From contig SOKE01000008.1 of assembly GCA_004375875.1 (NCBI GenBank), positions 1-41,257 of the forward strand: a stretch of 41,257 nt of DNA, given 5' to 3'. Of this stretch, positions 3,418 to 36,192 are shown one piece after another; within the stretch, counting starts at the first letter, position 1, and every line of letters starts with the position of its first letter. The stretch is from Candidatus Babelota bacterium (GTDB lineage: Bacteria > Babelota > Babeliae > Babelales > Vermiphilaceae). Under the pieces are notes generated by a model. The model had not been told where the DNA came from. It saw only the letters and a list, made by a program, of their open reading frames with translations, and did no database searches. The position numbers and the translations under genes are program-made.

Positions 3418-6400
3418 TTATCCTCGACCAGATCGATACCATGTATTATCAGGGGAATAGTACCAATACGTGACTGAAGCTCCATTTTGAGTTGCGGTTG
3501 GAGCAGCATCAGCTTCTAATTGAGTGATAGGATTGACAATAGCAGCACCACCTACACCTCCAGTATTAATTATATTAATCCACTGAGTAGTGTTCGCTGT
3601 TACAATGGTAAATAATTGTCCATTAGTTGGCGATGGTGGGAACGTAATGGTATAGTTATTAACATTTCCTGTATATTTTAACAACAAGATAGATGTTGAA
3701 CTCAGAACGGTAACCGAGCCACCAGTATTTGCTGTTACTACTTCTACCCCTTGATTACATAGTAATGTGTTTAAAACTAATTTTACTGCTGCCGTGATGG
3801 TTGTATCGCTTACACTCATTCGTTCATTGCCGCTGGTATCAAAAGAAAGTACATTGGGAGTTCCAGCAGAAATACCCGTGTTAGTGCTTCCAGTAAATTT
3901 CACCGATGGACTTGCTGCAGTTCCTGCAGGTAAGATAAGTGTTCCCGTCATGGTGTCTCCTACCTTAGCAACCTTACCATCAATCTGCGTTTGTATGGAA
4001 GATGTAACACCAGATAAATAACCTAATTCAGTGTCAGTTGTAGCGCTGGAGGAAAGTTTTTTGTTGACATCTGTAGCAACTGCTCTGTTTGCGGTAAGAC
4101 CATCAATAATAAGATCATCATCTGTTTTTAAAGTATTGGCTGAATCGCGGTATAAATTTGTGTCGCCTGCCCATACTAATTTTGCTGTCGTGTTGGTAGG
4201 TAATGGCGCATTAGTTGCAGTAGGAAATTCTACTTGATTGTCAAAACCGTTTAACTGCATAACACTATTTGCTCCGCGGGCTGCGAGGCCTGATGTATCA
4301 TTATTAGTATATGTAAATGCTAAATCAGCTTGTGTACCACGTTTCGCAATTGTCCATCCGCGTATATTATCATCAACTCCGACATTTCCTGTGTCAGATA
4401 TAAGGTTTACACTTGCTTCTTTTGTCCGGTCGCCGGTAATAACATAATAACGAGCATTATTACTTGCTGCTTGTGTCCCATTAAATGTTGGATCACCATT
4501 TGGATTTTTATACACTGTGCCTTTATTACCATAATAATCAGCCTCATAACAAAGCCCTGGAGGTAAAGGTTTCCCATTTAATACTTGATAGAGGATATGA
4601 GATGCGTCTGTAGAATCACCAATAGCCAAATATGCATGATCACTACTATTAAATGCTGAAATGTGAATATTAGTAGCATCTTCGAAATCCAATTTATCTG
4701 CCTCAAAAGTACCTCCCACAAAATGCATTATTGAGGAACCAACTTGTTTTATATTCGTTGTGCATTCTATTAAATTAACACTGGATGCTTGCAAAACTGT
4801 TGTATTTGTATCTCCAGCTGCACCGCACTCGATACCAAGCACCGCTTTTTCGATGGTAATATCGCTGGCAATAAGAGATGCTCCTGTTGTTACTTTTATA
4901 GCCGTTCCTCGAGAAACATCTGCTGCATCTTCACAATCAAAAAGACATCCTTCTATATAAGCTTTTGTCCCAACTCCTGTTACAGTTAAATTCACGCTCG
5001 TAGCTGTATTTTCTTTAAAATTAGCTCCTACTATTTGACATTTACTTCCACCCGAACATACAATTCCATTTACTGTTATCTCAATATTGCTATTTAACAC
5101 ACGCATGTGAGAACCTCCGCTTATATCTATGGCGTTATCATAGGCTGTAAAAAAACAATCTAAAATTGCAATGTCGGTTCCTGCTCCAGTTGTATATATT
5201 CCCCTATTCGCTGGAACATTAATTGATTGCCCTCCAAAAATGTTGCTTTGTATAATTGATCGCATATTGGTATATGAAATACAGGTTTCGTTATCGACAA
5301 GTATACTGTTTTTCAGTACTATTACGGGGTTTCCTGATAAGCTACTTGCGCTAATGCCCGTTTGAAAGAAGAAAATGTCGAGCTCCTTAAAGAGCGGCGA
5401 CCCGAAAGATTCTGTAGTGACATTAATAGCACTTGCTGTTGAGGATGGTCCGGGATTTGCTTGCAAGGTAAGATTGGTTAATTCTACAAGAACCACTGTT
5501 ATATCAAAAAGATTGATTGATGCGGTAGATGGAATTACCATAGTACCAACCTGAGCGCTTCCTTTGATAGAAATGCCATCCGCAGTTATCGTAATTGGAC
5601 CTCCTGAGTTGTCTTCGATGAAAGTACCCGCCCCAACATCAATAACTACTCGATTATTTGAACTTGCCACTGCATTGGCTTGATTAACTGCATGTTTAAT
5701 CGTTCTAAATGGAGCAGATAGTGAACCATCATTACTATCGTCACCAATAAGTGTAACATAATACGTTTTGGTCAACGCCGGTGGTGCATAAACAACTGTC
5801 CATGTGGTAGCGAATGACGATAGTGCTTTTAAATACTGACCAGCCACTGGCGGATTTGCTGGTAAATCTACGGTATAACTACTGCCAACCGCTGCTGGCG
5901 CACGTAATCCCACATATTCTCCACCAGCTGCATCCTGATAACGAACTTGTGATTGCGTTGCCATATTAAGATTACCAATCATGGTATCACCAGCTTTAAG
6001 TACATTTTGTGAAGCTGCTCCTGTTAAACTTCCTGCAAAGGTGCCGGTACCATCACGCGCAACAATTGTACTTGGTGTATTAACACTGGTTGCATCTGTT
6101 CCAATCGTTACATCATCAGCATTATTGGTAATCACCATGTGTGTGTTTTCTGCAAGCGTTTTAAAGTTGAGGGTAACACCTGTTTTATCTCTAAATATTT
6201 GACCAACACCGGTACCAACGTTTGCACCAGTTGTTTGCCCTGGAGCAGTAAATTGTACAAATTCAATAGAATCGGTATCAATGACAGCTGTTGGAGTGCT
6301 ACACAACCAACCAGTACCTGCCTTCGTAGCTCCTGAAGTAGTGAGCACATATGCCTGTCCTGCAGTATTTCCCGAAGCAAAATCATTTGGTCGTGTCCAC

Positions 6401-8025
6401 GTACTTACTTGAGTAAGCCACAGTCCATTTTCGATAGGACCAGTTTGCCCTACTAATAACACACGATCATCTACAGAAAGTGCAACGCCATCAATAGTTT
6501 GTGTACCTGATAATATGATATTATTTAAACCAACAACTAAGGCAGGCTCTTTTGGAATAATACCTGTACTCGCTGCATTATCTACGTAATCTTTTGTTGC
6601 CGCATCAGTAGCATTAATAATGCTACCAGTAATATTAATTTTATTTGTGATAAAATTACCGGAACCATTACGTTTAACAATAGTATTTGGTGTATTTGTA
6701 TCAGTAGCAGCATTTGCAGCGATGGTAGCAGAGGCAACATTAGCAGCTGTTTGCCCTCCAACAGTGTCTACTACCGTAGCACCTTGCGTGCCAGAAACAT
6801 CCCCCGTTAAAGCTCCACTAAAATTTGTAGCAGTACCTGCGGTTACTGCACTTGTAGCAGTATCTGCATTTCCTGTTAAATTTCCTGTTACATTTCCCGA
6901 TAAATTTGCAGTGATAGTTCCCGCACTAAAATTGCCAGAACCATCCCGTTTAACGATCGTGCTTGCAGTATTACTGCTCGTAGCAGCATTGGCAGCAACT
7001 GTAGCAGATGCAACATTAGCAGCAGACTGCCCTCCAACCGCGATAACCTGTGTAGTTGATTGATTTCCGGTAACATCACCGGTTAAAGGGCCGGTAAAAT
7101 TTGTAGCATTAGTTGCATTAGTAGCTGTTGTAGCATTACCGCTGAGATTTCCTGTTACATTTCCTGTTAAATTTGCAGTGATAGTGCCCGCAATAAAATT
7201 ACCGGAACCATTACGCTTAACAATTGTATTTGGTGTATTGGTATCAGTAGCAGCATTTGCAGCGATGGTAGCAGAGGCAACATTAACAGAAGTTTGTCCT
7301 CCAACTTCATCTACTACTGTTGCAGCTTGCGTACCTGAAACATCCCCTGCTAAAGATCCAGTAAAATCTGTAGCAGTTGTTGCATTACCATTGAGTGTAG
7401 GAGCATTTACCGTATTTGCCGTTAATGCATTTACTCCTGTTATATTATTACTACCATCAACATAAACAGTTGTATCTTTAACATTTTCAGTTCCATTTGG
7501 TAGATCGGTTGTCAACAGTGCATTATTGGTTCCAAATGGAGCCACCGTTGATACATTTCCAGCTCCAGCTGGTGTTCCATAAACAAGATTACCCACTCCA
7601 TCACTTTCTAAAAAATGACCAGCTGGACCAGTTGTTGATGGCCAACTAATAGTAATGCCATTCTTTGTAATACCATCGATTTGGATATTACCTATATCAT
7701 CAACAAGTACTAATGAATTTTTTATACGTGTGCCAGACGTATTTGCAAATCGAGCTACCGCATTGACAGTTGATGACCCATCACTATTAACCAATGCTTG
7801 ACCATTAATGCTCCCTCCTACAGAAAGATCCCCAGAAAAATTTCCATTTGATGCATCTAGGTCACCAGCAATATCTACATTATCTGATGCAAAGATTTTT
7901 TTTGCTTCTAAGTTATTAGCAAATAAGTTAACAACTCGAACGTTGGTAAATATTTTGCTGCGTGGTTTAGTGAATGAGCATGTTGGAACACACAGAAGAA
8001 ATAATATTGCTAATATCAACCCCAT
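3418..8025 (-). CDS. Giant secreted phage-tail-fibre-like / right-handed beta-helix surface protein
   Basis: 1535 residues. ATG 8025 has an AAGGAA site at suitable spacing, and the N-terminus is a signal peptide (about residues 1-18, ending CVPTCSFT). Residues 40-210 are fibre-like (SGDLSVGGSINGQ). Residues 212-467 hold three tandem repeats of about 85-90 residues, each with a GDVSGTQ-like core, NVASATIAANAAT and TIVKRNGSGNF; a partial fourth lies near 643-672. Residues 755-1110 start with YYVTLIGDDSNDGSLSAPFR, the DUF1565-type entry to a pectate-lyase-like beta-helix. Residues 1330-1362 carry ELGYLSGVTSSIQTQIDG and VGDTMTGTL, typical of phage tail fibres. No autotransporter barrel or sortase motif is visible at the C-terminus. 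Likely an extracellular fibre or adhesin; the carbohydrate-binding role is inferred. Confidence 0.85.
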   Translation of the reverse strand: MGLILAILFLLCVPTCSFTKPRSKIFTNVRVVNLFANNLEAKKIFASDNVDIAGDLDASNGNFSGDLSVGGSINGQALVNSDGSSTVNAVARFANTSGTRIKNSLVLVDDIGNIQIDGITKNGITISWPSTTGPAGHFLESDGVGNLVYGTPAGAGNVSTVAPFGTNNALLTTDLPNGTENVKDTTVYVDGSNNITGVNALTANTVNAPTLNGNATTATDFTGSLAGDVSGTQAATVVDEVGGQTSVNVASATIAANAATDTNTPNTIVKRNGSGNFIAGTITANLTGNVTGNLSGNATTATNATNATNFTGPLTGDVTGNQSTTQVIAVGGQSAANVASATVAANAATSSNTASTIVKRDGSGNFSAGTITANLSGNVTGNLTGNADTATSAVTAGTATNFSGALTGDVSGTQGATVVDTVGGQTAANVASATIAANAATDTNTPNTIVKRNGSGNFITNKINITGSIINATDAATKDYVDNAASTGIIPKEPALVVGLNNIILSGTQTIDGVALSVDDRVLLVGQTGPIENGLWLTQVSTWTRPNDFASGNTAGQAYVLTTSGATKAGTGWLCSTPTAVIDTDSIEFVQFTAPGQTTGANVGTGVGQIFRDKTGVTLNFKTLAENTHMVITNNADDVTIGTDATSVNTPSTIVARDGTGTFAGSLTGAASQNVLKAGDTMIGNLNMATQSQVRYQDAAGGEYVGLRAPAAVGSSYTVDLPANPPVAGQYLKALSSFATTWTVVYAPPALTKTYYVTLIGDDSNDGSLSAPFRTIKHAVNQANAVASSNNRVVIDVGAGTFIEDNSGGPITITADGISIKGSAQVGTMVIPSTASINLFDITVVLVELTNLTLQANPGPSSTASAINVTTESFGSPLFKELDIFFFQTGISASSLSGNPVIVLKNSILVDNETCISYTNMRSIIQSNIFGGQSINVPANRGIYTTGAGTDIAILDCFFTAYDNAIDISGGSHMRVLNSNIEITVNGIVCSGGSKCQIVGANFKENTATSVNLTVTGVGTKAYIEGCLFDCEDAADVSRGTAIKVTTGASLIASDITIEKAVLGIECGAAGDTNTTVLQASSVNLIECTTNIKQVGSSIMHFVGGTFEADKLDFEDATNIHISAFNSSDHAYLAIGDSTDASHILYQVLNGKPLPPGLCYEADYYGNKGTVYKNPNGDPTFNGTQAASNNARYYVITGDRTKEASVNLISDTGNVGVDDNIRGWTIAKRGTQADLAFTYTNNDTSGLAARGANSVMQLNGFDNQVEFPTATNAPLPTNTTAKLVWAGDTNLYRDSANTLKTDDDLIIDGLTANRAVATDVNKKLSSSATTDTELGYLSGVTSSIQTQIDGKVAKVGDTMTGTLILPAGTAASPSVKFTGSTNTGISAGTPNVLSFDTSGNERMSVSDTTITAAVKLVLNTLLCNQGVEVVTANTGGSVTVLSSTSILLLKYTGNVNNYTITFPPSPTNGQLFTIVTANTTQWINIINTGGVGGAAIVNPITQLEADAAPTATQNGASVTYWYYSPDNTWYRSGRG
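6625..7392 (-). repeat. Three in-frame tandem coding repeats of about 250-270 bp
   Basis: These encode residues 212-467 of the giant protein. The three units share long near-identical stretches, for example ASATIAANAATDTNTPNTIV in units 1 and 3. They differ by small indels of ATN/TAG-type triplets at their joins. The similarity points to recent internal duplication or gene conversion. Confidence 0.8.
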
Positions 8026-10861: not shown

Positions 10862-12550
10862 CTACATAAGACTAACAATAACTGTGCCCCAAATGGTAAG
10901 TATAAAATTACCTATCGCATACGGTACGGTATATCCAAGAACAGGCGTTAAGCTATCAGTTTCATTTTTTAACACATTTAATGATGGCGTCGCTGTTCCT
11001 GCACCAGTTAGTGCTCCTAAAAGGAGAATATAATTTAACTTAAGAACTATTCTACCAAACATGAGACCCAAAATATGAGGTAAAAGAGTTAATGCAACAC
11101 CAGCAAAAAATAATGTTGAGCCATGGGCTTGCAACGCATGAATAGCTTTCGGTCCTGCTGTAAGGCCAACACACGCAATAAATAGATTAAGCCCCAAGTC
11201 TGTAAGTATCCATTGAGCTCCATTCGGAATTTGCCCAAAGGTAGGATATAAAGATCGCAACCAACCGAAAAATAGACCTGCTAATAGTATGCCTCCACCT
11301 ATTCCGAGGGTAAGCGGTATAGTTCCAATTTTTATAGCCGCCAAACCTAACAAAGTCCCCAAGAAACATCCTAATCCAACAATTACCAAATCAGTAGCAT
11401 GAGTTTTTCTTTCAAGATAACCAATATTTTTAGCAAAGCTTTCTACATCTTTTTTTAAACCAATTACATGCAAAACATTACCTTTATAAACAATCATATT
11501 TTTCTTAAGAGGTAGTTCATGTCCCTGTTCCGTAATTTTGCTTATAAAGCAATGCTGGCCGTATTTTTTAAGTATTTCTCCTAATTTTTTTCCTTCTACC
11601 TGAGGTTTTGTGACACAAATTTTTATTATTTCAATAGGCAAATCCATTAAAGCAGGGTCATCTATCTCAGGCCCAATAATATTTTTAACATCGATAATTT
11701 GTTCCCTATCTCCAATAACCGCAATTAAATCATTCGGTTTTATTGTTATATCAGGTTTAGGCTCAATTAAATTATCACCACGTTTAATTTTTTCTATGAT
11801 TACTCTTTTTGGAAGCAAGATTTGCACATCACTTACTTTTTTTTCTTCTATGTTTTTGTTTGTAACACGATAAATTCTTATGCTAGGGTGCTTATTAAAA
11901 TCATCGATGGCTGCCTGGGTAGCCGTTGCCCCGGATAGTTTTGCTTCTAATTTTTGTGCTTCATCTTTGAGATCTACCTTTAGAAATTTTGGCACTATTT
12001 TGTAAAAAAGAATAAGCCCTGCAACCCCAAAAATATACGTTATAGCATAGGATACAGCTATATTAGAAGTTAAAATAGCTTTTTGTGCACTGGAAATAGA
12101 TAAGTTTTTTATGGCATCTTCAGCTGTTCCTATTATGGAAGATTGTGTCATTGCTCCAGCAAGAAACCCCGCTGTTGTTCCTTTGTCAAAACCAAAAAAT
12201 TTACCTAATACGATTGTAGTTACAAGACCAACTATTGCTACAAAAAATGTAAGAACCGTATATTTAAGGGCATCTTTTTTTAAACCACCAAAAAATTGTG
12301 GTCCAACTTTGTAGCCTATGGTGAAAATAAATAAAGCAAATGCAACTGACTTTATCAATGGAGTTATTTCAACATCCATCTGACCTAAAACTATTGCTGC
12401 AAGCAAGACACTTGCAGTTGATCCAAGCTTAAACCCAAAAAATTCTATTTTCCCTGCATAGTACCCAATCGCAAGTGAAAGAAATATTAAAATTTGTGGG
12501 TAATTACGACAAACTGTCGCGATATCATCAAATATATTATGTAACATCAT
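10862..12550 (-). CDS. aspT: Aspartate:alanine antiporter (AspT/YidE family)
   Basis: 562 residues. Two blocks of membrane helices (about 15-185 and 385-560) flank two soluble RCK_C/TrkA-C domains (about 205-370, ending LKKNMIVYKGNVLHVIGLKK). This is the layout of the aspartate-alanine exchanger family, and GPQFFGGLKKDALKY fits it. AspT swaps external aspartate for internal alanine. The start follows the asdA stop by 12 nt, so the two genes are cotranscribed; two adjacent ATGs (12550 and 12547) are possible starts. The neighbour makes AspT more likely than an orphan YidE transporter. Confidence 0.9.
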   Translation of the reverse strand: MMLHNIFDDIATVCRNYPQILIFLSLAIGYYAGKIEFFGFKLGSTASVLLAAIVLGQMDVEITPLIKSVAFALFIFTIGYKVGPQFFGGLKKDALKYTVLTFFVAIVGLVTTIVLGKFFGFDKGTTAGFLAGAMTQSSIIGTAEDAIKNLSISSAQKAILTSNIAVSYAITYIFGVAGLILFYKIVPKFLKVDLKDEAQKLEAKLSGATATQAAIDDFNKHPSIRIYRVTNKNIEEKKVSDVQILLPKRVIIEKIKRGDNLIEPKPDITIKPNDLIAVIGDREQIIDVKNIIGPEIDDPALMDLPIEIIKICVTKPQVEGKKLGEILKKYGQHCFISKITEQGHELPLKKNMIVYKGNVLHVIGLKKDVESFAKNIGYLERKTHATDLVIVGLGCFLGTLLGLAAIKIGTIPLTLGIGGGILLAGLFFGWLRSLYPTFGQIPNGAQWILTDLGLNLFIACVGLTAGPKAIHALQAHGSTLFFAGVALTLLPHILGLMFGRIVLKLNYILLLGALTGAGTATPSLNVLKNETDSLTPVLGYTVPYAIGNFILTIWGTVIVSLM

Positions 12551-12562
12551 TACTTACTTTCC

Positions 12563-14146
12563 CTATCTTTTTGATTTCCAATGGTTATAGTATTGCTCTA
12601 ATAGCCAACTTATAGATTTACCAATTTCTTCATATGCATCATCTGGAAGATTTGCAAGTGAAATACGAACAGACATATTTGGAGCATCAAAACCGCCGCC
12701 ATCAAGGAGAACAATTGCTCGTTCTTCTGCTAATCTCATTACAAAATCAATTGGTTCAAAAGTATTTACAAGATAATTGGCAAATTCTTGTCCATATCTA
12801 TTTTTAGCCAGTTTAGGAATATCAATTATAGTATAATAATGTGTACCATAAGGATCTTTTGGACAGTCAATGCCAATAGCATTGTATAAAGTTTCAAATC
12901 TTTTACGGACAATATCCTGTACCAGTTTTTTGTATTCTCCTTCTTTATCTATAAGACAAAATATAGAAAATAGAGTCATTAAAACCTGTTGTGGTGTTGA
13001 AGCTCCTGAAGTATGGCGAAGAGCTACTGCTCGGCTATCGGCTACCATTCTTTCTATAAATTTAAGTTTTTCTGGATAAAGGGCTATGGTACTGTATCGT
13101 TTGTTTAGTTCTTGTTTATCTTTATCAGGTAATTCTGATATTTTTTTATCAAAAATATTATTTTCATGAATTGCAATTACGCCAAGCCTCCACCCAGTTG
13201 CACCAAAATATTTTGAATAAGAGTATACGAGTATTGTGTTATGAGGAGCAGCTACAGCAAGAGACTTAAACCCATTTACAAATGTTCCATAAACATCATC
13301 TGTAAGGATTATAAGGTCTCGATGCTTATTTTTTACTAGATCGGCTATTTTTTCAAAACTTTTTGGATTTATGCTGACTGATGTTGGATTAGATGGATGT
13401 ACAAGAAAGAAGGCCTTAATTGCAGGATCTGCCAATTTTTCTATTTCTTTATCTGGATACTGCCATTCTTCATTCTCATCTTGCTCTACTTTTATTGTTA
13501 CAAATTTGTAATCATTTAAATGAGGAATCTCAATATAAGGTGTAAAAATGGGTGTTCCTAATGCAATAGTATCCCCTTTATGAAGAATTTTATTTTCCAT
13601 GAGACTATTAAAAATATAAGCCATTGCAGCGGTACCACCTTCTGTGGCAAATAAATCAAATTTTCCAGATTCCTCACCACCCAAAATCTCTTGATTAATA
13701 TATGAATGAACCGCTTTTTCATTAAAATCTAAAATTCGATCTGGCGTTGGATAATGATCTCCTAAAATTGCATCTACAATTTGACTGAGAAAATGTGCTG
13801 GTGCAATTCCTAACTCTTTATGAGCATAGGTTACTGCTTTCTTTAAAAATGGAACTCCAGGAGAATCTGCACTTTGTTTTAAAAATTCATCAAATCTTTT
13901 TTCTAAGCCTTTTTTTTCTGCAGGGCTTCCAAATCCGGGCCTAAGCAAATGCCTTTTCGATTCTTCCATGGCAAATAAACCTAATTGAAAAAATGCCTCC
14001 CTCGGCTCAATTGTTAGCCAGTTTGGGTTTCCACGACCTGCATTGAGCATCATTCTTTCAGCATTAGATTGTGCCATAGAAAGAAGTTTGTTTTTGAGCT
14101 CAAATGGACTTAATTTCTCATACCTTTTTTCTTCTGTAATTTTCAT
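12563..14146 (-). CDS. asdA: Aspartate 4-decarboxylase / aspartate aminotransferase
   Basis: 527 residues, a full-length fold-type I PLP enzyme. It turns L-aspartate into L-alanine plus CO2 (EC 4.1.1.12). Visible features: RGNPNW (38-43), HPSNPTS (250-256), LTDDVYGTF (281-289) for PLP binding, the Schiff-base lysine K312 in YSYSKYFGATGWR, and the C-terminal MSVRISLANL arginine. The long N-terminal part (SPFELKNKLLSMAQ) and the overall length separate AsdA from ordinary 400-residue aminotransferases. ATG 14146 has AAGGAA upstream. Decarboxylation uses up a cytoplasmic proton, and with AspT exchange it builds proton-motive force. Confidence 0.93.
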   Translation of the reverse strand: MKITEEKRYEKLSPFELKNKLLSMAQSNAERMMLNAGRGNPNWLTIEPREAFFQLGLFAMEESKRHLLRPGFGSPAEKKGLEKRFDEFLKQSADSPGVPFLKKAVTYAHKELGIAPAHFLSQIVDAILGDHYPTPDRILDFNEKAVHSYINQEILGGEESGKFDLFATEGGTAAMAYIFNSLMENKILHKGDTIALGTPIFTPYIEIPHLNDYKFVTIKVEQDENEEWQYPDKEIEKLADPAIKAFFLVHPSNPTSVSINPKSFEKIADLVKNKHRDLIILTDDVYGTFVNGFKSLAVAAPHNTILVYSYSKYFGATGWRLGVIAIHENNIFDKKISELPDKDKQELNKRYSTIALYPEKLKFIERMVADSRAVALRHTSGASTPQQVLMTLFSIFCLIDKEGEYKKLVQDIVRKRFETLYNAIGIDCPKDPYGTHYYTIIDIPKLAKNRYGQEFANYLVNTFEPIDFVMRLAEERAIVLLDGGGFDAPNMSVRISLANLPDDAYEEIGKSISWLLEQYYNHWKSKR

Positions 14147-30276: not shown

Positions 30277-32268
30277 TTAACTTTTTTTCTGGCTTTCGGG
30301 AATTTTTAAGAAACATTCTACCCTATCATCAATAGCCCAATCAGTAAAATCATCGACGAGAAAACCACATTCAAAACCAGCATGAACCTCCTTGACTGGT
30401 CGCCGTTCACGTTGCAAACTCTTAATTGAACCCGATCCAATCTTTTGTTTCCCGCGCCAAATAACAACGGTACCATCTCGTGAAAAACGCCCTTCTCGAA
30501 CATAACACCCAGCTATAACGCCAATACCCTTAATGTCAAATACTTTACGAACTACTGCTTCCCCAACTTTTACCAGAACCTTTTTAACCTTTTTATGCTT
30601 CTCAACAAACTCTTCAAGCGACTCAAGGAGTTTATAAATTACATCAAAGGTTTGAATAGTAACAGCATATCGTTGTGTCAATAAAAGCGCATTATGTTCA
30701 AGCTTTACGTAAAATGCAAAAATCGATGCACCTGTATTAGCAGCTAAAACTACATCGCTTTCAGTTACATCTCCTACACCGGCATAAATAATATTAAATT
30801 CCTTTTCAAGCTTACGGCCAAGTTTAGCTATAGCACCTAACAAAGCTTCTTTGGATGAGTTAGTATCAGCTTTAATCAAAAGATTCAAAGCACCTTCCAC
30901 CAATAAAACTGGTTTACGCTCAACAGCTCGTGATTTTGTCTTACGATATTCTTCCTTGGAAACAACTTCAAAAAGATCCCCAACCTCAGCTAATGCATCA
31001 AACCCGGCAACTTGAACCGGAATGTAAGGTCCTACCTCCTTAATTTTTTTACTAAATGAATCTATAAGAGAATTCACTCTACCACCAGTTTTGCCACATA
31101 CAAAATAGTCGCCTATTTTAAGCCTGCCATGTTGACAAATCAAAGTAGCAACAGGACCTAACCCCTTCTCCGGTTTAGATTCAAGTACATATCCTTTCGC
31201 TAATCCAGAAATTTCAGCCTTAAGTTCCATCAATTGCGATTGAAGCACAATCATCTCGAACAAATGATCAACACCTTGACCAAATTTAGCTGAAATAGGG
31301 ACAACAATAACATCACCACCCCACTCCTCTGGTAATAAATCATATTGCACAAGCGATTGTTTAACTACATCAACTCGTGATGCTTCAACCTTATCAACCT
31401 TATTGATTGCAACAACTATTGGAATTCCTGCAACTTTTGCATGATTAATCGCCTCAACTGTCTGAGGCATAACTCCATCATCGGCTGCTATAATAAGAAC
31501 GGCAATATCTGCTACTCCAACTCCGCGACCACGAATCTTATAAAAAGCTTCATGACCAGGCGTGTCAAGAAATATTATATTACCCTGTTTTACTTTTACC
31601 TCATAAGCCCCTAAATGTTGCGTTATACCTCCTTTTTCTTTTGCTGCAACCTTTGTCTTTCGAATATAATCAAGGAGCGTTGTTTTTCCATGATCAACAT
31701 GCCCAAGCACAACAACAACTGGAGGTCGTTCTTTAAAAACTCCCTCTTTAACCTCAATATCTTTAAATGTAGGAGCTTTTTCTACCCTCGGTTTTGCTGT
31801 TGAAATTCCTAACTGTTCAGCCAAACGTGCAACAACATCTTTCAACAATATTTGATTTTTTGTTGCAACAATACCCATTTTTAAAAGCGTTACAATAAGT
31901 TCATTAACAGGTTTTTCCGTTCTTTGTGCAAAATCTGCCAGGCTCATCGATTCTATGATAATCTCCTTGGGGTGAGCAATAGGCTCTTTTGGAACTTCTT
32001 GGTAGATATCTGCGATAGGTTTTGGAAATTCTTCTGAGACAACAGCTTGTTTTTTAGGTGATTTTTTGACAACAGGAGATACCTTTTTCTGTGCCACTTT
32101 CTTTTTTGCTGTTGTCGGCATTTCTTTGACATGACCTAGCAAAAGATCAATGGCTTTCTGATTAAGTACAGACATATGACTTTTTATATCAAAGCCTGCA
32201 TTCTGCAGAAAGTGTAGAATTTCTTTTGAAGGAACATTATGTTTTCTAGAAAACTCATATATACGCAT
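30277..32268 (-). CDS. infB: Translation initiation factor IF-2
   Basis: 663 residues, on the short side. The N-terminus has an IF2_N-type helical unit (RIYEFSRKHNVPSKEIL), a Lys/Pro linker of only about 50 residues, and a second IF2_N unit (SLADFAQRTEKPVNELIVTLLK). The G domain holds GHVDHGKTTLLD, LDTPGHEAF and NKVDKVE; domains II-IV follow (IKGIGVIAGCYVREG). It brings fMet-tRNA to the 30S subunit. It follows nusA by 58 nt, the classic nusA-infB order; rbfA and truB do not follow. Confidence 0.96.
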   Translation of the reverse strand: MRIYEFSRKHNVPSKEILHFLQNAGFDIKSHMSVLNQKAIDLLLGHVKEMPTTAKKKVAQKKVSPVVKKSPKKQAVVSEEFPKPIADIYQEVPKEPIAHPKEIIIESMSLADFAQRTEKPVNELIVTLLKMGIVATKNQILLKDVVARLAEQLGISTAKPRVEKAPTFKDIEVKEGVFKERPPVVVVLGHVDHGKTTLLDYIRKTKVAAKEKGGITQHLGAYEVKVKQGNIIFLDTPGHEAFYKIRGRGVGVADIAVLIIAADDGVMPQTVEAINHAKVAGIPIVVAINKVDKVEASRVDVVKQSLVQYDLLPEEWGGDVIVVPISAKFGQGVDHLFEMIVLQSQLMELKAEISGLAKGYVLESKPEKGLGPVATLICQHGRLKIGDYFVCGKTGGRVNSLIDSFSKKIKEVGPYIPVQVAGFDALAEVGDLFEVVSKEEYRKTKSRAVERKPVLLVEGALNLLIKADTNSSKEALLGAIAKLGRKLEKEFNIIYAGVGDVTESDVVLAANTGASIFAFYVKLEHNALLLTQRYAVTIQTFDVIYKLLESLEEFVEKHKKVKKVLVKVGEAVVRKVFDIKGIGVIAGCYVREGRFSRDGTVVIWRGKQKIGSGSIKSLQRERRPVKEVHAGFECGFLVDDFTDWAIDDRVECFLKIPESQKKS

Positions 32269-32326: not shown

Positions 32327-33394
32327 TTAAATATCATTCTCTGATTTCTCCAGCAGATCACTCTTTTTTAATTCTTCCTCTTTCTTTCCTGGCATTAAAT
32401 GAATATTAACACCAGTAAGTTTAGACGCTAATGCTATGTTTTGCCCCATTTTTCCAATGGCTAGTGAACGTTGGTCCTCGTCAACCGAGACATTGGCCGT
32501 CTGCGAATCAACAAGCTCAACTACATTAACACGCGCTGGCTTTAGAGCATTTGCTATCAGTTTCTCAAGTGATTCACTCCAAGAAATCACATCAATTTTT
32601 TCTCCACCAAGCTCCTTCAGAATAGGTTTAATGCGCGATCCCCCTACACCAACACAGGTTCCTACCGGATCAATATTCTCATCATGTGAAATAAGGGCCA
32701 CCTTTGATTTATAACCTGGAATACGCACAATTTTTTTAATCTCAACAAGCCTCTCAAACACCTCTGGAATCTCTAATTCGAATAGTTTTGCTAAAAAGAA
32801 ATTAGAAACTCTATCCAAAATAAGCTGATTTTCATATCGGGGTTCAGCAAGAACCTCCTTTAACAATGCACGAATAGGAAATCCTACCGTACACTTATCC
32901 CCAGGAATCGAAAGCGATTTTGGCAAAAACGCCAGAGTATCACGCAGTTTAATAATGGTCCCACCATGCTCACACTTGTGAATAACGCCATACACAATAG
33001 AGCCTTCTTTATCTTTAAATTCTTGATAGGTTGCATCAGCTTCCATTTTACGAATTTGACTTGCAATAACTTGCTTAGCTCGTAAAATTTCTATACGCCC
33101 AACAACTCCTTCAAACGGTAGAAATACCCCATCGCCAATCTTAGATTTTTTATCAATGGAACGTGCTTTTCTAAGGCTAATTTGCAGATCTCCATCTTCT
33201 ACCGAAGAAACCACTTCTTTTTGTACTTTAACTTGAATTTCATCTGTTTTTTTATCATATTCAACGCTAAATACCAAATTGGGATACTTTTTTTGATACG
33301 CGGCAAGAATTCCCTTAGTAATAATAGAAGCTAAGGTATCCCTATCAAGCCCTCGTTCCTCAGTGAGCTCAGCAATTACATCAGTAAGCTTCAC
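32327..33394 (-). CDS. nusA: Transcription elongation/termination factor NusA
   Basis: 355 residues. An N-terminal RNA-polymerase-binding domain (1-125) is followed by S1 (GSIVYGVIHKCEHGGTIIKL) and two KH domains (CVGVGGSRIKPILKELGGEKIDVI and SLAIGKMGQNIALASKLTGVNI). The C-terminal acidic repeats of E. coli NusA are absent, as in many bacteria. The start is GTG at 33394 with AAAGGA 4-5 nt upstream. It heads the nusA-infB operon and is transcribed away from the predicted origin. Confidence 0.95.
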   Translation of the reverse strand: MKLTDVIAELTEERGLDRDTLASIITKGILAAYQKKYPNLVFSVEYDKKTDEIQVKVQKEVVSSVEDGDLQISLRKARSIDKKSKIGDGVFLPFEGVVGRIEILRAKQVIASQIRKMEADATYQEFKDKEGSIVYGVIHKCEHGGTIIKLRDTLAFLPKSLSIPGDKCTVGFPIRALLKEVLAEPRYENQLILDRVSNFFLAKLFELEIPEVFERLVEIKKIVRIPGYKSKVALISHDENIDPVGTCVGVGGSRIKPILKELGGEKIDVISWSESLEKLIANALKPARVNVVELVDSQTANVSVDEDQRSLAIGKMGQNIALASKLTGVNIHLMPGKKEEELKKSDLLEKSENDI

Positions 33395-33616
33395 AATATC
33401 CTTTACTCAAAAAATTAAGATTATTCTAAATTTGCTTTAGAGGGGTAAAGCTGATTGTACGCTAAAAATCTTTATAGATATTTTATTATAAAGCAGAAAT
33501 TTTTGCAAGCACATTTTATTATTTGAAAAGCAATTTATTTGGTTTGTTGAGGAAATAATTAATTCATTCACCATATGGGAAAAATAAACATACAATAATC
33601 AGGCCCTAGGCTTTGC

Positions 33617-33666
33617 TTATTATTATATATATTAATATATATTAATATAATAATAATATAATAATA
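33617..33666. other. 50-nt A/T-only stretch, likely DNA-unwinding element
   Basis: Every base from 33617 to 33666 is A or T, made of TATTA, TATATATTAA and TAATAA units. TAGGCT (33607-33612) and AGCCTA (33673-33678) flank it as an inverted repeat. It sits just left of the first DnaA-like box at 33682. Confidence 0.6.
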
Positions 33667-33681
33667 GGTGAGAGCCTAAGT

Positions 33682-33824
33682 GGTGGATAACTTGGGTAGT
33701 TACGTATCTGATATTCTGATTAGATCGATATATTGTAAGTGCAAATGACTGGTGGATAAGTGGTGGATAACTATATAAGATTTGTTATGATTCCGCTCCT
33801 AGTGAAGATATTGCTGGTGGATAA
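33682..33824 (-). repeat. Four DnaA-like boxes, minus orientation
   Basis: GGTGGATAA occurs at 33682-33690, 33751-33759, 33762-33770 and 33816-33824. Read on the minus strand, each is TTATCCACC. The middle two are spaced 11 bp apart, the same period as the plus-strand array. Confidence 0.7.
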
Positions 33825-33883
33825 CTTTGAAAACTGCGATCAGCTTGAGCCATTCAAAGGTAGGGGTAAATCGATTTGTAAAC

Positions 33884-33947
33884 TTATCCACCACTTATCC
33901 ACCACTTATCCACCACTTATCCACCACTTATCCACCACTTGTCTCCA
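33884..33947 (+). repeat. Tandem array of DnaA-like boxes with 11-bp period, plus orientation
   Basis: TTATCCACC starts at 33884, 33895, 33906, 33917 and 33928, each separated by AC. A sixth, decayed copy (TTGTCTCCA) is at 33939-33947. The period is close to one DNA turn, so bound proteins would sit on one face of the helix. The array ends 1 nt before the UDG stop codon. Confidence 0.8.
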
Positions 33948-33948
33948 T

Positions 33949-34527
33949 TTAGGAGCAGAGGCTGTAAGCAAAGGCTAGATCGGCAATAAGTGTTTTTAAT
34001 TCTTTAGGATTGCGTAATATATAGGCTGGATGGTAGGTTGGGACTACTATTATCTCTTCTATTAGGATCTTTTCGCCTCTTATTTGGGAAATTTTTAATG
34101 TTTCCCTACCTAGTAGTCCCCGAATAGCGGCAGAACCAAGAGTACAAATAACTTTTGGACAGATGATTTGTATTTGTTTAATAAGTAGTAAATTTTTACA
34201 GGTTTGGCTTTCTGTTGGAGTTGGTGTTCTGTTGCTTGGAGGGCGACATTTTACAATATTTGTGATGAAAACATCTTTACGTTGAATGCCTATTGCTTCA
34301 AGTGAACGATTTAATAATTGGCCGGCTCTGCCGATAAATGGTTTTCCTTGTAGGTCTTCTTCTTTTCCAGGTCCTTCTCCTATGAACATGAGCTTGGCAT
34401 CTGGATTACCTTCGCCAAAAACAATATGTTTTCTGCCAAGAGTTCCTAATGGGCATGCCTCACAATTATAGTATGGTTTATACAGTTGATTAAGCAGTTC
34501 TAGCTTAAATGATTTTTCAAGATCCAT
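33949..34527 (-). CDS. Family 4 uracil-DNA glycosylase (4Fe-4S)
   Basis: 192 residues, normal for family 4. It cuts uracil from DNA. The cluster cysteines are C22 and C25 (CEACPLG), C94 (IVKCRPPSNR) and C110. The active-site loop is GEGPGKEEDLQGKPFIGRAG (50-69), and the C-terminal site is PTYHPAYILRNP. The common name is UdgA/type-4 UDG; it is not Ung. No strong ribosome binding site precedes ATG 34527. Confidence 0.94.
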   Translation of the reverse strand: MDLEKSFKLELLNQLYKPYYNCEACPLGTLGRKHIVFGEGNPDAKLMFIGEGPGKEEDLQGKPFIGRAGQLLNRSLEAIGIQRKDVFITNIVKCRPPSNRTPTPTESQTCKNLLLIKQIQIICPKVICTLGSAAIRGLLGRETLKISQIRGEKILIEEIIVVPTYHPAYILRNPKELKTLIADLAFAYSLCS

Positions 34528-34650: not shown

Positions 34651-36192
34651 TTAAGAAAGAAGATACAATGTTAAGAAAGATAACCAATGATTACTAGTAG
34701 CAAATGAAGTTTTCTTATATGAAGGATGAATTCTCTGTTCAGGAAAATATATTGAAAGACCTGATGCATTTCGCAAGTTTTTACCAACCTTGTTGGCGAT
34801 AACAATTTCGCGAATAATTTTTCTTCCTTCTTCAAGTAATGTCTTAAGAGACCTTTTTATTTCTTGTTCTTCATGTGTATTTTTAAATTGGAATTGTCCT
34901 AGATTAGTTAAGACGTTACTATAAAGATGCCCCAGATCTATATAGCTAGGTTCATCAAAATGTGTACAATTGCGCTTATTACGACTTGTTTGTAATGCTC
35001 TTTTTACTGCACCGTTACGTTGTTTTTTTAAACTTTCGATAAGAAGTGTTGCTACTGAATTAATATTTTTTTCGAGCAACTCTACATGATTTAGGCTAAT
35101 GGCAGCTTGTGTATAATCATTGGTAATGACGTTGTATGTTTCGTCATATGCTTGAACGATATGTTTCGCAAAAGCTACTGGATCAAGAGAGTGGTGCAAA
35201 AATGGAACTAGTACTTTTTGATAATTCCATCCTGATCCAAGTACAACTTCTTGAGAACCAACCATAATATGCGTATATTTTTTTATAGTTGCTGCTATTT
35301 CGATGCTATTCATAAGACAAGCATCAAAACCTAATAGATCAATCTTGCCCCCCCTAAGGCATTCTTTACAAATTGTTCTAAGAGCAAAATCTAGTTTTTG
35401 ATTAGTCAGATAGTTACCAGTTGAATCATCCCAACAAATTCCACGCTGTTCTAATTTACTGAGAGATTCTATTATGCTTATGTATTCAAGAAATCCTATA
35501 CTTCTATCCAAATCTAGCTTATTAGTAGTAGCATTGTACGTAAATAACTCATTTGCATTAAAAATTCTCCCGGTTACTGGATCAAGTGGACCGGTACCAT
35601 GATCCCATAGGAAAAGGGCAAATTTATTTGCAGGAAAATTGGTTATACCCCATTTGAAACATGAGATGAGAGTCTGTGGATCGCCACTGTCCATTTTTTG
35701 TGTTATAGGATCATTAATATTTACTTGTATTAGTTTTTCTTTTTCTACATAAAATCGCCTTGTTACTTTTTTCTTTCCAAGTGTTTTTATGTCTAGATGA
35801 ATAATTATATTCATATTGGCTGTAGAGCCAACATTTGCCATCTGTTTTATGTTTCTAACAGCAAAAGGACCTAAATCATTATCGGCTGCTAGATAAAAGA
35901 TGAGAGTCCAGTCCTTCTTTGGTTTTTGTGCTTTGGATAGTTCGGATTCTCTGTTTATTGTTACATTATCTATTTGATATGTATTGAGAAGATTTTCTTC
36001 GCGAAGCCAGGAATTTAAATCAATTACTGCTGAATGATTGTTGTGCTCGAATAGTAGTTTGGATTGCTCCTCTTCTTGTTTAGAATTAAGTTTAGTTGTT
36101 ATTAAGAATATGGGAAAAATTATTGCTAGTAATGTACTGTATAATGTAACATAAAAATTTTTCCTCGAGTTAATATATTTTCGTGGCTTCAT
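34651..36192 (-). CDS. Secreted clostripain-family (C11) cysteine protease
   Basis: 513 residues. An N-terminal basic stretch and helix (residues 14-33) act as signal or anchor, followed by a polar segment and then the C11 domain (about 95-510). WTLIFYLAADNDL opens the caspase-like fold, the catalytic His is H198 in LWDHGTG, and the catalytic Cys is C292 in GFDACLMNSIEIA. C11 enzymes cut after Arg or Lys and are often self-activated; no clear cleavage site was assigned. The start has a strong AGGGGGG site. A role on host or competitor proteins is inferred. Confidence 0.88.
   Translation of the reverse strand: MKPRKYINSRKNFYVTLYSTLLAIIFPIFLITTKLNSKQEEEQSKLLFEHNNHSAVIDLNSWLREENLLNTYQIDNVTINRESELSKAQKPKKDWTLIFYLAADNDLGPFAVRNIKQMANVGSTANMNIIIHLDIKTLGKKKVTRRFYVEKEKLIQVNINDPITQKMDSGDPQTLISCFKWGITNFPANKFALFLWDHGTGPLDPVTGRIFNANELFTYNATTNKLDLDRSIGFLEYISIIESLSKLEQRGICWDDSTGNYLTNQKLDFALRTICKECLRGGKIDLLGFDACLMNSIEIAATIKKYTHIMVGSQEVVLGSGWNYQKVLVPFLHHSLDPVAFAKHIVQAYDETYNVITNDYTQAAISLNHVELLEKNINSVATLLIESLKKQRNGAVKRALQTSRNKRNCTHFDEPSYIDLGHLYSNVLTNLGQFQFKNTHEEQEIKRSLKTLLEEGRKIIREIVIANKVGKNLRNASGLSIYFPEQRIHPSYKKTSFATSNHWLSFLTLYLLS

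Follow-up and report, generated by a model that had tools for sequence, protein, structure and literature searches.

Does the gene-free stretch between nusA and a uracil-DNA glycosylase gene, which holds a dense set of identical DnaA-box-like repeats, serve as the origin of chromosome replication in a bacterium whose dnaA lies elsewhere in the genome? The DNA comes from the Dependentiae (TM6; GTDB Babelota), a phylum of parasites most of which are uncultured. Comparing the repeats, the base composition and the corresponding loci of relatives, we consider positions 33395-33948 to be the predicted chromosomal replication origin (oriC) of this organism, with a probability of about 0.94.

Genomic context of the repeat cluster

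The stretch of DNA analysed here, referred to as the window, is the entire contig C3 (41,257 nucleotides) of the draft genome G000, which comprises 927,421 bases in 37 contigs. The intergenic region is 554 nt long and free of genes. It is bounded on one side by nusA (32327-33394, minus strand; TIGR01953, 324 bits), the start codon of which ends at 33394, and on the other side by a type-4 uracil-DNA glycosylase (UDG) gene (33949-34527, minus strand; TIGR00758, 190 bits) with its stop at 33949. The two family matches bear out the gap as a sequence-only reading of the window had drawn it. nusA, which is followed by infB (30277-32268), is the conserved neighbor and flanks the side of the predicted unwinding element (DUE). 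The UDG gene is found on the array side in many relatives, not all. Contig C3 is chromosomal, because it carries nusA, infB and atpD; these genes contradict the plasmid or phage contig which the sequence-only reading had considered as a way to be refuted, and both readings were dropped. An RNA reading of the region was also abandoned, as an Rfam search of the window returned no RNA.

Elsewhere in the window, at 10862-14146 on the minus strand, an aspartate:alanine antiporter (TIGR03802) adjoins an aspartate 4-decarboxylase (TIGR03801), both matching above cut-off. Antiporter and decarboxylase are known as a proton-motive decarboxylation pair, and one would not expect the pair in a reduced parasite, the relatives of which presumably import ATP. 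A protein of 1535 aa that begins with a signal-like sequence and matches no Pfam family is encoded at 3418-8025 (minus strand), and a Clostripain-family (C11) peptidase, probably exported, at 34651-36192 (minus strand).

DnaA boxes and A/T tract within the window

The nine exact copies of TTATCCACC reported in the sequence-only reading, four pointing one way and five the other, were all found at their positions within 33395-33948. On the minus strand, forming the left set, they are located at 33682-33690, 33751-33759, 33762-33770 and 33816-33824. The right array on the plus strand comprises the copies at 33884-33892, 33895-33903, 33906-33914, 33917-33925 and 33928-33936. Neighboring copies follow an 11-bp period in the right array and at 33751-33770 in the left array, and the outermost left copy, referred to as the DUE-proximal box, is 69 bp away from the next one (start to start). 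By chance 0.20 copies would be expected in the whole window, and in none of 100 shuffles were nine observed. The remainder of G000 contains only four copies, each of them single.

More than three strict boxes within 500 bp (TTATCCACN, TTATNCACA or TTWTNCACA) occur nowhere else in the 99.8% of G000 that was covered, which comprises everything except some 1.9 kb of terminal sequence in C32 and C33. With the much relaxed motif TKWTNCANM the nusA/UDG gap again ranks first, with 9 matches versus 7 in the best runners-up of G000. The region therefore holds a non-coding DnaA-box cluster that is unique in the genome, and the search for a better cluster elsewhere in G000, which had been proposed as a check, ended without one.

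Beside the boxes, and outside the left set as described before, lies a tract of 50 nt consisting of A and T only (33617-33666). It is the longest such tract of the window (the next has 28 nt) and represents the predicted DUE. Between this tract and the outermost left box we identified elements that the sequence-only reading had not mentioned: a spacer of 14 nt (33668-33681, minus strand) adjoining the DUE-proximal box, followed by three DnaA-trios, CTA TTA TTA (33659-33667, minus strand; 3’-GAT AAT AAT-5’ on the other strand). Nor had it mentioned that trios recur in mirrored orientation, as TTA TTA TTA on the plus strand, where the A/T tract ends on its other side (33617-33625); in the window these mirrored trios are not accompanied by an exact mirrored box.

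GC skew and position of dnaA

Along contig C3 the cumulative GC skew declines until it reaches its minimum inside the gap, at 33,408, and rises thereafter. With G000 distributed over 37 contigs, skew minima were compared contig by contig, so that they are local and do not derive from one global curve; among all contigs of G000 the V of C3 is the deepest (461 versus at most 222). Two relatives assembled into one or two contigs were skew-sampled almost end to end. In G022 (one contig, 1,222,284 bases) the sampled skew kept a positive sign from position 1 as far as about 468 kb, was negative between 512 and 1,108 kb and had a positive sign once more from 1,152 kb onwards. The local minimum at 1,135,744 and the nusA start at 1,135,275 are about 470 bp apart, the minimum being on the upstream side, and dnaA is found at 432 kb. 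In G034 (C2, 1,059,635 bases) the skew switches from negative to positive at 964,167, in a 20-kb stretch holding nusA (963,766-964,779), with dnaA at 371 kb. The skew turns of both genomes are thus about 600–700 kb away from dnaA. The skew check, laid down beforehand as a possible refutation, accordingly placed the minimum at the locus itself in C3 (as a local minimum) and at the orthologous locus in G022 and G034, not elsewhere.

G000 encodes a DnaA with an intact box-binding domain on contig C37 (PF00308, 207.5 bits; PF08299, 83.9 bits). Near this gene no box cluster was found on C37, and at each of the phylum's 79 dnaA loci a stretch of 300 bp contains three boxes at most. An origin beside dnaA, of the dnaA-dnaN type, was therefore seen neither on C37 nor at these 79 loci, in agreement with the placement away from dnaA in the sequence-only reading.

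Conservation of the array beside nusA

The loci of relatives were collected by UDG and NusA searches, and the phylum set consisted of 101 genomes, all of one order. In almost all relatives collected a convergent array adjoins nusA. By a strict count, for which both arms had to contain three or more TTATNNAC[AC] and only nusA-upstream regions of at least 430 nt were considered, the convergent array is present upstream of nusA in 64 of 77 regions. Most of the 13 failing regions contain smaller or degenerate arrays; degenerate arrays upstream of nusA were seen in G045, G046, G047 and G095. A tandem of three copies was found for TTATCCAC in 53 and for TTATNNAC in 68 of the 101 genomes, and the reversed control pattern gave tandem sites in none of the 101. 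Checked against the coordinates of nusA, the tandem arrays listed adjoin this gene or stand at a contig end. The same array at nusA in the relatives, the unique cluster and the skew minimum at 33,408 all support what the sequence-only reading had called a probable DnaA-type chromosomal origin.

Some loci deviate from the common form, and those with a degenerate array or none count against the origin reading. G067 is the one relative in which no array can be recognised upstream of nusA. A broken second dnaA C-terminal domain lies directly upstream of its nusA (C12, approximately 7140-7342, locus L276), the intact dnaA being on C13, and the origin of this genome has possibly been relocated. In G100 (C8, 12502-12818, locus L266) the origin array is expanded, with 20 boxes in one arm, mostly at an 11-bp period. 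In the drafts G041, G051, G055, G068 and G084 contigs end in or beside the origin array; Dependentiae assemblies tend to break at the origin.

Shared anatomy and a possible mechanism

We parsed the anatomy of the region in 55 relatives, 52 automatically and 3 by hand, reading from the array towards nusA. The common order is array, a gap of about 67 bp, a lone box, 13–14 nt, DnaA-trios, A/T tract and nusA, often with a second, mirrored trio set. The array itself consists of two convergent DnaA-box arrays with a period of 11–12 bp. From the lone DUE-proximal box to the last array box the distance is 65–69 bp in 43 of 55 genomes, with a mode of 67, and the spacer between lone box and trios measures 13–14 nt in 45 of the 52 automatically parsed genomes. 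The spacer leads to three to six triplets of the CTA/TTA type, which are followed by the A/T-rich tract. At the far end of the tract, runs of at least three TA[AG] triplets, i.e. trios on the other strand, are present in 27 of 55 genomes, compared to 2.8 expected from dinucleotide shuffles (largest value 8) and 1 of 55 in a same-strand control. In seven genomes the mirrored trios are followed by a mirrored box, at 14 or 4 nt.

This arrangement suggests how the predicted origin may work. DnaA would fill both arrays, and the segment of about 67 bp would bend or loop, so that array and lone box together nucleate a DnaA filament. From the lone box the filament would run onto the trio strand, the A/T tract would thereby be opened, and helicases could be loaded for two forks. 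More speculatively, a second filament may engage the other strand by way of the mirrored trios at the far edge.

Box sequences vary in step with DnaA residues

Within most genomes the boxes are alike, and they differ between genomes. At bases 5–9 we found the variants CCACC, CCACA, CAACA, CGACA, GAACA, and GCACC together with CAACC. In E. coli DnaA the base-contacting residues are R399, P423, D433, H434, T435 and H439 (PMC7561715, PMC8235120), and D433 is highly conserved in bacteria (PMC7561715, PMC8235120). Residues of the Dependentiae proteins were numbered by alignment to domain IV of E. coli DnaA (1j1v). Asn replaces Asp at 433 in 8 of 80 DnaAs. CC at bases 5–6 of the box is absent in all 7 of these with readable boxes versus 2 of 51 genomes with Asp, so that residue and box are concordant in 56 of 58 genomes. 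Position 423 behaves similarly with respect to base 9: C is found there in more than 20% of the boxes in 27 of 28 genomes with Arg423 and in 0 of the 30 others (57 of 58 concordant). G000 fits both rules, having Arg423, Asp433 and boxes of the form TTATCCACC. Arg423 facing the guanine opposite C9 and Asn433 facing the adenine at base 6 would be chemically plausible contacts. Judging from the sequences compared, DnaA is probably the binder of the boxes, because box bases 5–6 and 9 vary in step with the DnaA contact positions 433 and 423.

A correlation of this kind might simply result from shared ancestry without any co-evolution of specificity, an objection that concerns the correlation and not the origin. 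On a tree of DnaA (domains I–III) and NusA, the traits 433/bases 5–6 and 423/base 9 change 5–6 and 8 times. Independent pairs mostly agree and are never opposite, but only 3–4 of them stand on strongly supported branches, so that sign tests alone cannot reach 0.05. It also speaks for the objection that, among all columns of domain IV, 423 was selected because it fitted best; multiplied by about 100, its p-value is still far below 0.01. The 433 column was spotted by eye in the alignment. Against these points, Pagel tests of correlated evolution, which take the tree into account, gave LR 41.7 (p-value = 1.9e-8) for Arg423/C9 and LR 26.8 (p-value = 2.2e-5) for Asn433/loss of CC, and in 0 of 5000 simulations of independent evolution was the observed concordance matched for either trait pair. 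In addition, 423 and 433 are both among the base-contact positions of E. coli DnaA (PMC7561715). We therefore regard shared ancestry as an unlikely explanation.

Co-evolution of initiator and boxes would proceed by a change of one DnaA residue (Arg at 423 or Asn at 433), along with which most or all of the approximately nine origin boxes would change base 9, or bases 5–6. We lean slightly towards reading the Dependentiae origin as a record of such repeated co-switches, combined with inverted trios at both DUE edges that suggest an engagement of both strands by DnaA. A further case was noticed in G012 (loci L134 and L329), where the box TTMTCCAACA occurs together with a DnaA that, alone among those seen, has Cys in place of Thr at position 436 (E. 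coli numbering); this pairing is possibly a third co-switch.

It has long been asked how an essential initiator and many genomic sites change their specificity jointly, and natural cases are few. The Dependentiae display, at a single fixed locus, several box alphabets that are paired with one or two DnaA residues. Residue swaps at 423 and 433 on short DNA can therefore test the rule directly, using the box forms TTATCCACC, TTATCCACA, TTATCAACA and TTATGAACA.

Other possible functions of the box cluster

Boxes bound by DnaA could also form a regulatory or titration cluster, similar to datA or DARS or controlling the nusA-infB operon, with replication starting elsewhere. The boxes are indeed located directly upstream of nusA, the DUE-proximal box beginning 296 bp from the gene in the window and the lone box usually 170–300 bp from it in relatives, and DnaA is a known transcription factor. 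However, the skew minima coincide with the site in three genomes, a DUE with trios lies at the distance known from the basal origin unwinding system (BUS), and no cluster in G000 competes with this one, which makes a purely regulatory or titrating role very improbable. Regulation of nusA by the boxes may exist on top of the origin function. Regular direct repeats can also be iterons, but an iteron-type plasmid or phage origin served by another initiator is hardly credible for repeats that match the DnaA box and co-vary with DnaA residues 423 and 433, on a contig with nusA, infB and atpD and at a site conserved beside nusA across the phylum.

Comparison with published origins

The preferred reading, a chromosomal origin beside nusA, can be compared with two published origins of the phylum. 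For Chromulinavorax destructans SeV1 the genome report gives a predicted origin at 651641-652233 (PMC6561590). In this genome (G056, 1,174,272 bp) we located the array at C1:651690, inside the published origin, with the nusA match from 652198. The C. destructans origin resembles the window locus in phylum, place by nusA, convergent boxes, DnaA-trios and A/T tract. In its available part, PMC6561590 names skew and the box TTATCCACA only, whereas the boxes of the window all end in C, and contains no remark on the nusA neighbor, array geometry, trios or conservation.

The origin of Babela massiliensis was placed 152 nt upstream of dnaA and was assigned by GC skew (PMC4378268). It shares phylum and skew-based assignment with the window locus, but its place at dnaA is unlike that of the nusA array and counts against the origin reading of the latter. 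In what is presumably the same genome (G039, 1,118,422 bp) we found a box array upstream of nusA, near 651 kb and about 651 kb from dnaA, in which a spacer of 14 nt leads to four CTA trios. Of 150 plus-strand places of the skewed 6-mer AAGGTG in G039, 86 are located in the half that an origin at nusA would predict and 75 in the half predicted by one at dnaA, a difference too small to favor either place. The array with its trios at nusA calls the published origin into question, and its assignment deserves re-examination. For rotating or checking Dependentiae genomes the array at nusA can serve as an origin landmark.

In the open-access literature on origins upstream of nusA and on DnaA or origins in Dependentiae we found nothing beyond PMC6561590 and PMC4378268. 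The kind of origin is already known, as is a predicted origin at the nusA locus in one member of the phylum. New, as far as the open-access literature shows, are the constant position next to nusA throughout the phylum, a geometry of 67 bp plus 13–14 nt that hardly varies, the mirrored trios and the repeated co-switches of initiator and box.

Another close known system is the BUS described for Bacillus subtilis and others (PMC6669920, PMC8287927), in which a box has three or more NAN triplets no further than 16 bp away and the spacer peaks at 10–13 bp (PMC8287927). The window follows this rule with a 14-nt spacer and the trios CTA TTA TTA. In general, the Dependentiae origins share with the BUS a box, a spacer of 13–14 nt and at least three trios on the expected strand, the first triplet usually being CTA or TTA (3’-GAT-5’ or 3’-AAT-5’). 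A tandem box pair before the trios is the most frequent form of the BUS, though not an obligatory one; the window has a single exact DUE-proximal box, for which degenerate partners are possible, and most Dependentiae genomes likewise have a single exact box without tandem partner. Also unlike the BUS, the Dependentiae array is not located beside dnaA, and its trios frequently have a mirrored counterpart across the A/T tract, which a few genomes combine with a mirrored box.
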